Virus record (IMG/VR): IMGVR_UViG_3300031237_000265
Coordinates: 1 to 47,166 of that record
Length of the DNA: 47,166 nucleotides
Strand: one strand, 5' to 3'
Source of the DNA: a virus
Under the pieces are notes generated by a model, which was not told the origin of the DNA, did no database searches, and worked only from the letters and a program-made list of their open reading frames with translations. Shown here one piece after another: positions 9,790-14,011 of the stretch (position 1 is its first letter; each line of letters begins with the position of its first letter). The translations under genes and the position numbers were made by a program.

Positions 9790-9938
9790 TATTGAGCGAA
9801 GCGAAACCACATGACCACGCCCAGGGCGAGACCGGAGATAACCCCGGCCAGGAAGGCAATGGAGATGATGTGAAGGAAACTCGCGACCATCAGCATGGTT
9901 CCGCCCAATAGGATCGCGATCAGTAAGCGGGTGATCAC
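9789..9938 (-). CDS. 49-aa two-helix membrane protein
   Basis: This gene reads from a GTG at 9938 that overlaps the stop of the TAXI gene (GTGA, 9935-9938). The 49-aa product is almost entirely hydrophobic: ITRLLIAILLGGTMLMVASF, then ISIAFLAGVISGLALGVVMW, ending RFAQ. Two transmembrane helices with a short turn are predicted. Coupling to the secreted solute-binding protein suggests that both act at the envelope, perhaps in exclusion of other phages (inference). Not recognised as a known family. Confidence 0.6.
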   Translation of the reverse strand: MITRLLIAILLGGTMLMVASFLHIISIAFLAGVISGLALGVVMWFRFAQ

Positions 9939-10819
9939 CGCACCACCTTCACGACACTGTTGATACCTTTATCCACAGCGCGGCGGACCTTCTTCGCTTC
10001 GTCTGGCTGCATGCTTTTCAGATAGTCGTTGTTGAACACGATCTGAGCGCGCAGGCAGTAAGTGTCAGGCTTGCCCATCGTCGAAGTGTCCAGGCCGCTT
10101 TGGCCTTCTTTGTCGACAACGCAGTGGGTGTAAAGCGGGTTGTTGTTGGCGTCTTTTGCGTCTTCGAATGAACTGTCGTTCACCTCGCCAATCAGGATCT
10201 GCTTGCTGAAGTCGGCCGTGATGTCGTTCGGGATCTTCCCGGCGCGACCGATGTACAGCATGCCGGCGATCTCGATGCGCACACCGGCCTTCGTGACGTA
10301 GCCCTGGGCGACTGCTTCGGCCGCGCTGTACCAGTCGTCAAACTCGACGATTCGTGCGCCTTCGTAATCCTTGTCGGTCTTGATCCAATTGCGGACCGTG
10401 ACCAATGCCCCGGATCCAGACACCGCCGCAAAGGCGTACTTCGCCGCAACGCTGTCTTTTTCCATCTTGCCGAAGTCATCGACGCCGGCCTTGCCGTGCA
10501 GCCAGTAGATGACCTCCTGGTGTGCATCGCTGACCTTGAGATCGGCCGGCATCGGCAAACTGATCACCGCGTCGTTCTGGATGACCGCGATGTCGCAGGC
10601 CCCGTCCTTCAGCTTCTCGGCATTCTCTACCGAGCCACCAGTGTTGATCACTTTCGCCTCCCCGCCGTCCTGCTTGGCAATGGTGTTGCCGATGCTGGTG
10701 GCCAGGCTTTCGTAAAAGCCGCCTTCACCACCGGAGCAGAAACGAAGGGGAGGCGGTGCCGCGCTGGCGATGGCTGAAACACTCAGCAGCACAGCCAGCA
10801 ATAACGCTTTCGATTTCAT
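9935..10819 (-). CDS. Secreted TAXI-type solute-binding protein
   Basis: This 294-aa protein carries a clear Sec signal peptide (KSKALLLAVLLSVSAIASA, then APPPL). The mature part resembles TAXI-family TRAP transporter binding proteins: LRFCSGGEGGFYESLATSIG, then NTGGSVENAEKLKDGACDIAVIQ near the ligand site, and a GSGALVTVRNW loop. It should fold as a two-lobed periplasmic binding protein. No TRAP permease is present, so it either serves a host transporter or has been repurposed. The start at 10819 has GAGGAAC upstream; a longer frame lacks support. Confidence 0.78.
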   Translation of the reverse strand: MKSKALLLAVLLSVSAIASAAPPPLRFCSGGEGGFYESLATSIGNTIAKQDGGEAKVINTGGSVENAEKLKDGACDIAVIQNDAVISLPMPADLKVSDAHQEVIYWLHGKAGVDDFGKMEKDSVAAKYAFAAVSGSGALVTVRNWIKTDKDYEGARIVEFDDWYSAAEAVAQGYVTKAGVRIEIAGMLYIGRAGKIPNDITADFSKQILIGEVNDSSFEDAKDANNNPLYTHCVVDKEGQSGLDTSTMGKPDTYCLRAQIVFNNDYLKSMQPDEAKKVRRAVDKGINSVVKVVR

Positions 10820-10845
10820 GGGTGTTCCTCTGGGTTGGGTGACAT

Positions 10846-10880
10846 CCCGATGCACCCTGTCGCCAAGGTGCAGCAGTGAT
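10846..10880 (-). promoter_or_regulatory. Conserved leader hairpin, copy 2
   Basis: TGCACC pairs with GGTGCA around a ten-base loop, 32 nt upstream of the TAXI gene start. Over 35 nt it matches copy 3 (11222-11255) at 29 positions by my count, with stems conserved and most changes in the loop. It is likely a shared regulatory RNA element of the left operon. Confidence 0.6.
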
Positions 10881-10893
10881 GCTTTGCCGTCGT

Positions 10894-11199
10894 TTACGCG
10901 ATAAAAACACCATCAGTAGATTCCCCAGCTGGGCCTTGAGGATTTGGGCTTTCAGCCTGGCCAACGATAATTTCTCGTCGCATTGCCTCGGCAACGAGCG
11001 CGGTCTGGCGGTGAACCCCCAGCTTGAACATCGCGTTGGATATCCGCTTGACCACCGTCCCTGGCTCAACATCGAACGTTCTGGCGATTTGTTTGGCGGT
11101 CAAGCCTTGCGCAACTGAAAGCAGAAATTGAAGTTCTCGACGGGCAAGGCCTCGGCCGAGATGGCCGATCCATGTGCCGCTTTTGATTGTTGATTCCAT
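10894..11199 (-). CDS. LuxR-type HTH DNA-binding protein
   Basis: This 101-aa protein is essentially a stand-alone GerE/LuxR helix-turn-helix: LARRELQFLLSVAQGLTAKQ, then IARTFDVEPGTVVKRISNAMFKLGVHRQTALVAEA (about 17-73). It has no sensory domain, so it may be constitutively active or regulated by its level. It is the first gene after PL and could control the left operon or host genes. GAGG eight bases before the ATG at 11199 supports the start. Confidence 0.85.
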   Translation of the reverse strand: MESTIKSGTWIGHLGRGLARRELQFLLSVAQGLTAKQIARTFDVEPGTVVKRISNAMFKLGVHRQTALVAEAMRREIIVGQAESPNPQGPAGESTDGVFIA

Positions 11200-11595: not shown

Positions 11596-11624
11596 ATTTA
11601 AGCAAGCTGAATTGCGACAGTCAA
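11596..11624 (-). promoter_or_regulatory. Leftward early promoter PL
   Basis: On the minus strand TTGACT (11619-11624), a 17-bp spacer and TTAAAT (11596-11601) form a strong sigma-70 promoter. Operators overlap both hexamers, so bound repressor would block it. It would drive the left operon starting near 11589. Confidence 0.75.
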
Positions 11625-11658
11625 GCATGCTTAAGAAAATAAATTCAGATTGCTTAAT
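11598..11658. promoter_or_regulatory. Left operator cluster OL (three sites)
   Basis: Three 14-bp sites resembling TTMAGCATGCTTAA lie at 11598-11611 (TTAAGCAAGCTGAA), 11621-11634 (TCAAGCATGCTTAA) and 11645-11658 (TTCAGATTGCTTAA). Centres are 23 and 24 bp apart. The same motif recurs beside the cI/cro promoters, so these are the likely CI/Cro binding sites. Confidence 0.75.
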
Positions 11659-11669
11659 TCTGCGGGCGA

Positions 11670-11693
11670 AAAAAAAACCCGCTTAAGGCGGGC
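11670..11693 (-). terminator. Terminator after DUF1654 gene
   Basis: On the minus strand CCCGC-TTAAG-type loop-GCGGG is followed by nine T residues, a classical intrinsic terminator. It stands about 20 nt after the DUF1654 stop and just before OL, separating that transcript from the PL operon. Confidence 0.85.
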
Positions 11694-11711
11694 TTCATTC
11701 ATTCGAAGCGA

Positions 11712-11969
11712 TCAATCCTCGCTGGGTACGGTCCAGTAAATGAACACGCCGCCGTCTTCCTGGTGTTCCACCGTGACGTTATCGTTCTCGCCAATTTCCT
11801 GCATAAGCTGGCTCCAGCCGTCTTCAGGCTCATCTGGCGAGCGGAAGAGCGTGGCCTCTTTGGCTTTCTGCGCAGCCGGTGAATTGATGATCTTCTGCAC
11901 GCGCAATCCCATCAGCTCGAAAGAGCTAGGAGGGGTAATGGATGCTGGTTCTTTCTTTGCTTTCGCCAT
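11712..11969 (-). CDS. DUF1654 protein under LexA control
   Basis: This 85-aa protein fits DUF1654, a Pseudomonas-restricted family: SFELMGLRVQKIINSPAAQK, then LFRSPDEPEDGWSQLMQEIG and NVTVEHQEDGGVFIYWTV. Its function is unknown. It sits between OL and cI with its own promoter and terminator, as rex does in lambda. A LexA box overlaps its start site, so it should be expressed on DNA damage. That makes a role in prophage induction, such as acting on the repressor, plausible (inference). Confidence 0.82.
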   Translation of the reverse strand: MAKAKKEPASITPPSSFELMGLRVQKIINSPAAQKAKEATLFRSPDEPEDGWSQLMQEIGENDNVTVEHQEDGGVFIYWTVPSED

Positions 11970-11987
11970 GATTCTTGCTCTTATTTA

Positions 11988-12003
11988 CTGTATGAATAAA
12001 CAG
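11988..12003. promoter_or_regulatory. LexA (SOS) box
   Basis: CTGTATGAATAAACAG matches the gammaproteobacterial SOS box (CTG-N10-CAG with an AT-rich centre). It is extended to a 20-bp imperfect palindrome TACTG...CAGTA. It lies just downstream of the -10 hexamer of the DUF1654 promoter, so bound LexA would block initiation. Confidence 0.8.
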
Positions 12004-12006
12004 TAT

Positions 12007-12036
12007 TTTATACATCAATGTAAGGTGGCGCGACAA
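12007..12036 (-). promoter_or_regulatory. SOS-controlled promoter of DUF1654 gene
   Basis: On the minus strand TTGTCG (12031-12036), an 18-bp spacer and TATAAA (12007-12012) form a good sigma-70 promoter. Its start point falls within the LexA box. The transcript leader would be about 30 nt. Confidence 0.6.
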
Positions 12037-12070
12037 GAGTACTTTTGTACTCCGTTGGGTTGCGGACAAC

Positions 12071-12095
12071 AAAAAGCCCGCACAGGGGCGGGCTT
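12071..12095 (-). terminator. cI transcript terminator
   Basis: On the minus strand AGCCCGC pairs with GCGGGCT around a six-base loop, followed by TTTTT. It lies about 50 nt after the cI stop and upstream of the DUF1654 promoter, isolating the two transcripts. Confidence 0.85.
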
Positions 12096-12143: not shown

Positions 12144-12815
12144 CTATCTGAAAATCGACTTCGGCATTTTGCCGTCCACTACTGTGCCAACGACCTCCCA
12201 ATCACCATCCATAGGAGTCGTCGGGAATGAAGGGTTTAATGGTTTTAGGTAGAACTCTCCTGCATCCCGAAGAAACTGCTTAAATGTTGCCTCGTTCGTG
12301 TCAGGCATGCGGGCCACAACGAGCTGGCCGGAATTGGGTTCAATCTCAGGGGCGACAAGGATCAGAGAACCCTCTGGGAAGGATGCGCCGACGGCGCTCG
12401 TCATGGACTGCCCCACAACCTTAAGCCAGAAAGCACTCTCGCCAGCCCATACATCTGATGAGTGCCTTTCGCACGCTGCAACGTTAGACGTGTCCATTGC
12501 CTCGGTTGCTGCTCCAGCCTGTACCCAACTGATTTCTGGGTACATAAATGATCGTGTTGGCTGTAACGCCACTTCCACGTTAGAGGGGTGGCCTGCCTTG
12601 GTGGAAACCATGTCGCCAGTACCATTCGCGAGCCATTCAGCGCTCACGCCGGTCGCCTTCGCAAGAGCGAAAAGGTTTTCAGGTTTTAGCGCCTTGCTAT
12701 CACCGTTCACCCATTGAGTTACGGCCGAAGCCGAGACGCCGCAAAGAGCAGCGATATCCTTTTTTAGTTTCTTGCTGTGCTTGATCGCCTGGGCGATTCG
12801 GTCGTGTCTGCTCAT
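12144..12815 (-). CDS. cI: CI-type phage repressor (HTH + S24 peptidase)
   Basis: This 223-aa repressor should maintain lysogeny by binding the 14-bp operators. Residues about 5-65 form an XRE helix-turn-helix (KKDIAALCGVSASAVTQW). The C-terminal S24/LexA domain has the self-cleavage site Ala100-Gly101 (WVQAGAA), catalytic Ser137 (VVGQSMT) and Lys179 (ATFKQFL), so RecA-stimulated autocleavage on DNA damage is expected. It is divergent from cro. No Shine-Dalgarno is visible, and the predicted PRM -10 places the start point at the ATG, so its mRNA may be leaderless. Confidence 0.94.
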   Translation of the reverse strand: MSRHDRIAQAIKHSKKLKKDIAALCGVSASAVTQWVNGDSKALKPENLFALAKATGVSAEWLANGTGDMVSTKAGHPSNVEVALQPTRSFMYPEISWVQAGAATEAMDTSNVAACERHSSDVWAGESAFWLKVVGQSMTSAVGASFPEGSLILVAPEIEPNSGQLVVARMPDTNEATFKQFLRDAGEFYLKPLNPSFPTTPMDGDWEVVGTVVDGKMPKSIFR

Positions 12816-12821
12816 AGGTAA

Positions 12822-12850
12822 ATGTTAAGCGAACTTAATTTAAGCATGCC
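12822..12850 (-). promoter_or_regulatory. Candidate repressor promoter PRM
   Basis: TAACAT (minus strand, 12822-12827) ends six bases before the cI ATG, so transcription would begin at or near the start codon. The -35 region (GGCATG, 12845-12850) is poor and overlaps an operator. This would suit a promoter activated by bound repressor, as in lambda (inference). Confidence 0.4.
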
Positions 12851-12895
12851 TTTAGCGTGGAAACAGTATTGATGTCGATAATTCAGCATGCTTAA
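12825..12895. promoter_or_regulatory. Right operator cluster OR (three sites)
   Basis: Sites lie at 12825-12838 (TTAAGCGAACTTAA), 12840-12853 (TTAAGCATGCCTTT) and 12882-12895 (TTCAGCATGCTTAA). They match the left operators. The third covers the PR -10 box; the first two cover the PRM region. Spacing is 15 and 42 bp between centres, unlike the even spacing on the left. Confidence 0.75.
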
Positions 12896-12923: not shown

Positions 12924-13103
12924 ATGAAAACCAAAGATGCGGCTATGCATTTCGGCTCGAAGAAGAAGCTTGCGGTTGCCCTGAACATCAGTCCTGGCGC
13001 AGTGACCATGTGGGGTGATCACGTGCCCGAGTCTCGCCAGTACCAAATTCAGGTTCTGACCAAGGGTGCTCTGAAGGCCGACCCCAAGCTTTCAGCCGCC
13101 TAA
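12924..13103 (+). CDS. cro: Cro-type repressor
   Basis: This 59-aa protein starts at an ATG with AAGGAG eight bases upstream. It resembles the short P22-type Cro family: MKTKDAAMHFGSKKKLAVAL, then NISPGAVTMWGDHVPESRQY and IQVLTKG. The helix-turn-helix spans about residues 4-35. It lies immediately after PR and opposite cI, the canonical cro position, and should bind the same operators to favour lytic growth. Its length makes it easy to miss. Confidence 0.88.
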   Translation: MKTKDAAMHFGSKKKLAVALNISPGAVTMWGDHVPESRQYQIQVLTKGALKADPKLSAA

Positions 13104-13855: not shown

Positions 13856-14011
13856 ATGGGTTCGTCCCTGGTCGAGCTGATGAAACAAGTATCGGATTTA
13901 GCAGGGAGTTGGGGTAGTGCACTGGAATGGCTGTTGATTCATCCAGTACTCAAATTACAGGCACAAAAAAGCCGGTGGCTAGACCGGCTTCTTCACAACA
14001 CAAACACTTGA
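13856..14011 (+). CDS. Possible 51-aa protein
   Basis: An ATG frame of 51 codons encodes a helical peptide (MGSSLVELMKQVSDLAGSWG, then SALEWLLIHPVLKL). Its stop overlaps the ribosome site of the next gene (TTGAGGGG). AAGG stands only two bases before the ATG, an unfavourable spacing. A hairpin with terminator features lies inside the frame. Coding status is uncertain. Confidence 0.3.
   Translation: MGSSLVELMKQVSDLAGSWGSALEWLLIHPVLKLQAQKSRWLDRLLHNTNT
13969..13990. terminator. Hairpin, leftward terminator-like
   Basis: AAGCCGGT pairs with ACCGGCTT around six bases. Six A residues lie on its left side, so leftward RNA would end in U6. Rightward the tail is TTCTTC, which is weaker. It might attenuate the PR transcript or stop antisense transcription. 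Confidence 0.5.

Follow-up and report, generated by a model that had tools for sequence, protein, structure and literature searches.

LexA-controlled prophage genes that promote induction include tum of coliphage 186 and the antirepressor genes of Salmonella Gifsy-type prophages, and DinI, also under LexA control, is a small acidic protein encoded both in chromosomes and in prophages. For Pseudomonas putida KT2440, PMC4595014 places PP_3901, a gene of prophage P1, in the regulons of both LexA1 and LexA2 (with reference to Abella et al. 2007). According to the same paper, the gene is upregulated by mitomycin C, by nalidixic acid and by H2O2, and several prophage genes reportedly need it for their induction after DNA damage (again citing Abella et al. 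2007). When parts of P1 are deleted, the entire prophage is often lost by excision (PMC12894663), so the PP_3901 phenotype could be confounded. Here we compare with these systems a DUF1654 gene in the immunity region of a viral record, analysed over its full length of 47,166 nucleotides (hereafter, the window).

One of the closest known systems is PP_3901 itself. All four PP_3901 qPCR and promoter primers taken from PMC4595014 match one IMG/VR prophage contig (L268), on or directly before a PF07867 (DUF1654) gene encoding an 86-aa protein (E 1.7e-32), whose promoter carries two types of LexA box spaced as in the window and whose neighbours, HicAB towards cI and a LuxR/sigma-like gene towards PL, follow the order of the KT2440 prophage P1 map of PMC12894663. 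On these sequence matches, PP_3901 is a DUF1654 gene with the window's type of promoter, and the window gene, which has both box types and is located in the immunity region, to the PL side of cI, is by the same comparison another member of the PP_3901 type. Both are PF07867 members, share a promoter layout of LexA2 box, TAAAATACTG and LexA1 box, and lie between the PL operon and the cI side next to a LuxR/sigma-like gene of the same kind. They differ in that protein identity is only moderate (86 aa in PP_3901, 85 aa in the window), KT2440 has hicAB and rexAB between DUF1654 and cI where the window has no gene, and the LexA2 half-site of PP_3901 reads GTGC instead of GTAC. The first-pass annotation of this DNA had stated that DUF1654 has no known function and had suggested an induction factor or an antirepressor. 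The statement on function holds only formally, given the phenotype reported for PP_3901 in PMC4595014, and the term induction factor is well founded because PP_3901 is here identified as a DUF1654 gene with that reported phenotype.

Table 1. Immunity-region features of the window, with the evidence for each
Feature	Position	Strand	Evidence
First gene of the PL side, LuxR/sigma-like HTH (phrog_3282)	10894..11199	-	profile matches
OL, three operators (11598-11611, 11621-11634, 11644-11657)	11598..11657		operator scan
Rho-independent terminator of the DUF1654 unit, before OL	11674..11696	-	terminator scan
DUF1654 gene, 85 aa, PP_3901-type without ...PF tail	11712..11969	-	PF07867 E 5.9e-27, phrog_2707, AlphaFold mean pLDDT 89
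Predicted LexA (LexA1-type) box CTGTTTATTCATACAG (gene's direction), over expected transcription start	11988..12003	-	exact sequence, matrix scan, family conservation
Inferred sigma-70 promoter of DUF1654	12007..12036	-	-35 TTGTCG (12036-12031), 18-bp spacer, -10 TATAAA (12012-12007), read by eye
Predicted LexA2-type box GAGTACAAAAGTACTC, just upstream of inferred -35	12037..12052	-	promoter alignment, host lexA2 match
Terminator-like hairpin between cI and DUF1654, T-run after hairpin on minus strand	12074..12095		scan and sequence
CI repressor, HTH_3 and Peptidase_S24, VQAG cleavage motif, GQSM serine, TFKQ lysine	12144..12815	-	profiles and LexA alignment
Cro (P22_Cro)	12924..13103	+	profile match
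OR, three operators (12825-12838, 12840-12853, 12882-12895)	12825..12895		operator scan

The window's DUF1654 gene occupies a lambdoid immunity region (Table 1), and its product matches PF07867 at 93.6 bits against a curated cut-off of 27. Because the six TTAAGCATGCTTAA-like operators in the window fall into two triplets, at OL and OR, and occur nowhere else, the gene can be placed between OL and cI, as had been proposed; in a scan of the window, none of the CI operator matches fell inside the promoter of DUF1654. The terminator-like hairpin is predicted to separate DUF1654 from the cI transcript, and on the explanation that we favour the gene would be an autonomous SOS-controlled unit. The first-pass annotation had set a LexA box on the start site of a DUF1654 promoter. 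The overlap of the box with the expected start stands, while the promoter itself was read by eye and a consensus promoter scan made no call for TTGTCG-18-TATAAA; the TAAAATACTG block within it is conserved in the promoter alignment. Elsewhere in the window, a separate Ant/Rha-type antirepressor gene (ant) is preceded at about 75 bp by a weak LexA-like site, CTGTTGATTCATCCAG (13931-13946), which we dropped because it comes no higher than fourth among the window's sites and no conservation was seen in the nearest relatives. The early-left region carries, as an odd cargo, a gene for a TRAP/TAXI-type periplasmic solute-binding protein (9935-10855; weak family match), and PADLOC returned no defence-system match.

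The LexA1-type box, an exact 16-mer (CTGTATGAATAAACAG), is the sole CTGT-N8-ACAG match in the 47-kb window; such matches are expected there by chance at a mean of 0.44, so the single match argues little by itself. With a LexA matrix derived solely from the boxes of host lexA genes and of chromosomal DUF1654 genes, it scores 18.4, a value that 1 of 20 shuffles reached; the next best window site scores 11.8. The box-to-start distance is 34 bp, with the near end of the box 18 bp before the ATG. What lifts the box above chance is its conservation at a nearly fixed position: among 174 DUF1654 loci fetched from viral contigs and bacterial genomes, 172 have a box just upstream of the gene (CTG-N10-CAG agreeing with the consensus at 12 or more of 16 positions), mostly at 28-39 bp once starts are corrected. 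This set partly overlaps the first 20 relatives, all of which have the box directly upstream after a misannotated start in TC7 is mended. One of the two box-less loci ends at a contig edge and the other has a single altered base. Before other ORFs of the same loci, a box occurs in 39 of 2,810 cases, many of them the same box viewed from an overlapping or divergent ORF. The conserved palindrome over the promoter is, at the sequence level, the mark of a LexA-regulon gene; SOS control of the window gene is very likely, and LexA would be expected to bind the predicted boxes. Conservation of the box in relatives, which had been named as a check on the earlier proposal, is what these loci show. Among the relatives, P54-like contigs (L011:2668-3315; L155, L161, L166, L169 and others) carry two divergent DUF1654 genes flanking one LexA box, the public annotation of vB_PaeS-D14E (L015) wrongly names DUF1654 HslU, and the annotated start in TC7 (L018) is too early, putting the LexA box inside the gene.

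Two further elements, a LexA2-type site and chromosomal members of the family, had been overlooked in the first-pass annotation. Aligned promoters of the window type contain two conserved blocks, TAAAATACTGTTTATTCATACAG and GAGTACAAANGTNCTC, separated by variable sequence, of which GAGTACAAANGTNCTC lies about 80 bp before the start codon and corresponds in the window to the LexA2-type box, 81-83 bp before the ATG. In six Pseudomonas genomes (L204-L209), the same sequence stands right at the start of the second lexA gene (GAGTACAAATGTACTC or ...GTGCTC), and the first lexA has CTG-N10-CAG boxes. Of 176 promoters tested, 11 contain the LexA2-type core (background, 0.002 per stretch), and both boxes are conserved in 11 window-type promoters including that of PP_3901. 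Since both box types match those of host lexA genes, the window promoter reads as one predicted to be doubly controlled, and LexA2 probably acts through the box upstream of the -35.

DUF1654 was found in 218 of 249 sampled genomes of Pseudomonas, the genus to which genome G002 belongs; across the class of G002, 369 genomes were sampled and G002 was the only one to have it. Of the 174 loci, 161 have a CI-type S24 repressor no more than about 4 kb away, the 13 without a detected cI including contig ends and apparent host flanks, and the 3' end of cI always faces DUF1654. Orientation is of two kinds, with 151 genes converging on cI and 10 running with it as in the window. F116 gp28 and its homologues (phi297, LESphi3, D14O, P54, AUS531phi) resemble the window gene in lying between PL and cI with a LexA box 30-38 bp upstream, and differ from it in having about 30% identity, the converging orientation, no LexA2 box and, in many members, a ...PF tail that the window protein lacks. 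In the chromosomal branch, 19 of 20 sampled loci place DUF1654 upstream of, and on the same strand as, the Endonuclease I gene (endA), with a gap of 5-7 bp (342 bp in one locus). These units resemble the window gene in lacking the tail and in having their own LexA box, mostly 34-38 bp upstream, and differ in having no repressor nearby and in the endA gene that follows; an example is L254:5301-6285, with upstream box CTGTATGCACGTACAG, and 18 similar loci lie among L248-L266. In a comparison over 84 alignment columns, the DUF1654 proteins of three IMG/VR contigs (L107, L110 and L113) group with the chromosomal branch, for which reason these viral records appear to include host flank.

The protein itself offers few structural clues. 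The window DUF1654 is confidently predicted to fold as alpha-alpha-beta-alpha-beta-beta (AlphaFold mean pLDDT 89), and the model had no match at E<=0.001 in either a Foldseek search of the PDB (best E 0.045) or a viral structure library. We do not claim the winged-helix likeness of some weak PDB hits, as TM-scores reach at most about 0.45. DUF1654 shares with DinI small size, acidity, LexA control and copies in chromosome and prophages; homology to DinI was considered and set aside, PF07867 being the only profile that matches at E<=0.1 and DinI being absent from the PDB fold hits listed.

The window CI bears directly on what the gene might do. Its cleavage site and Ser/Lys dyad are intact in alignment with LexA, and the dyad is kept in relatives too; because CI retains the serine and lysine of S24 self-cleavage, DUF1654 does not replace CI cleavage. 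Together with the near-universal box, this supports the earlier suggestion of a second SOS input beside CI self-cleavage. Near-identical DUF1654 proteins are paired with CIs that share only about 22-25% identity in their DNA-binding halves and 98-100% in their S24 halves, a pattern that, in the sequences, is one of recombination inside cI that would swap immunity and keep the SOS-sensing half. Three CI pairs (L155/L166, L171/L194 and L128/L151) have nearly identical S24 halves and unrelated DNA-binding halves. Across pairs with at least 700 bp of unrelated cargo between the genes, median S24 identity rises over increasing bins of DUF1654 identity (0.46, 0.52, 0.73 and 0.96; Spearman 0.44, on pairs that are not independent). 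This covariation fits a role at the step of repressor cleavage, and it may reflect ordinary backbone linkage.

We weigh several accounts of DUF1654, of which the one we hold somewhat likelier than the rest taken together is that of a LexA1- and LexA2-controlled induction factor of the PP_3901 type acting at RecA-dependent inactivation of S24 repressors. The gene would be repressed by host LexA1, through the box over its start site, and probably also by host LexA2, through the box upstream of the -35, rather than by the phage CI. DNA damage would activate RecA, inactivating LexA and beginning CI self-cleavage; release of LexA would switch on DUF1654, which would then help the prophage to complete or amplify induction. 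Its most likely target would be the RecA-dependent inactivation of S24 repressors rather than the CI DNA-binding domain, and we infer this molecular target from the patterns above. Several points count against this account: because the chromosomal copy sits upstream of endA with no cI near, the core activity of DUF1654 is not CI-specific; the PP_3901 phenotype could be confounded by prophage loss; the covariation with the S24 half may be backbone linkage; and the structure searches gave no match at E<=0.001. We rejected an antisense or read-through effect of this SOS-controlled transcript on cI or PL as a general mechanism, since the gene is oriented differently in different phages and the window copy is followed by a terminator.

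The same chromosomal units, with their own LexA boxes directly upstream of endA in 19 of 20 loci, invite a different account, in which DUF1654, induced by damage, serves DNA metabolism as an SOS effector. It would work on the RecA, SSB or nuclease machinery in favour of phage DNA or repair, and the position next to cI would be no more than a protected moron site like that of lambda rex. All DUF1654 proteins are acidic (pI 4.1-5.0), and an acidic stretch ending exactly in PF, predicted disordered in F116-type proteins (for example L039) and resembling the ...DDDIPF C-terminus of host SSB, closes 102 of 142 unique prophage-type proteins compared with 13 of 6,186 other ORFs. However, the window protein ends in ...PSED rather than in an SSB-type C-terminal peptide, the tail is missing from the whole window clade and from the chromosomal copies, and PMC4595014 reports PP_3901 as needed for prophage gene induction; we consider this account a possible but unlikely one. 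More speculative still is a reading in which DUF1654 is a Pseudomonas-centred SOS family, made up of a single chromosomal branch coupled to endA and several branches in prophages, that tunes RecA-dependent repressor cleavage, the SSB-like tail of the F116 type acting on SSB-coated DNA or SSB partners. If this were true, a prophage would bring along its own version of an SOS modulator of the host, dedicated to amplifying induction.

A classical antirepressor, binding CI and blocking its operator binding as the LexA-controlled Tum of coliphage 186 would suggest, is in keeping with LexA control, with the linkage to cI in 161 of 174 loci and with the PP_3901 phenotype as given in PMC4595014. We nevertheless regard it as improbable: near-identical DUF1654 proteins serve CIs with DNA-binding halves only about 22-25% identical, which leans against a target in that domain, chromosomal copies have no CI near, the window already has ant, and the window CI, set beside the Tum and Gifsy-type systems, is an S24 protein that keeps its self-cleavage residues. 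Like tum and the Gifsy-type genes, the window DUF1654 would be repressed by LexA and favour induction; we saw no sequence relation between them. It is very improbable that the box matches by chance and that DUF1654 lies outside SOS regulation: one CTGT-N8-ACAG site in 47 kb is not rare, but the position-specific conservation (172 of 174) and the LexA regulation of PP_3901 published in PMC4595014 both speak against it.

Taken as a whole, the observation made in the first-pass annotation holds and is strengthened, and the interpretation offered there is partly supported. In the literature that we searched, which is thin in subscription journals, we found neither PF07867, family-wide LexA control of DUF1654, the identity of PP_3901 as a DUF1654 gene, the endA-linked chromosomal branch, nor the SSB-like tail, and the family-wide generalisation of LexA control appears unreported there; the name DUF1654 occurs in one paper. 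Our findings tie the DUF1654 family to PP_3901, the sole reported phenotype that we found for it, and, for a domain without annotation that 218 of 249 sampled Pseudomonas genomes carry, they predict a nearly universal family of SOS genes. They thereby raise the question of whether temperate Pseudomonas phages need, besides CI cleavage, a second SOS-controlled step in order to induce.
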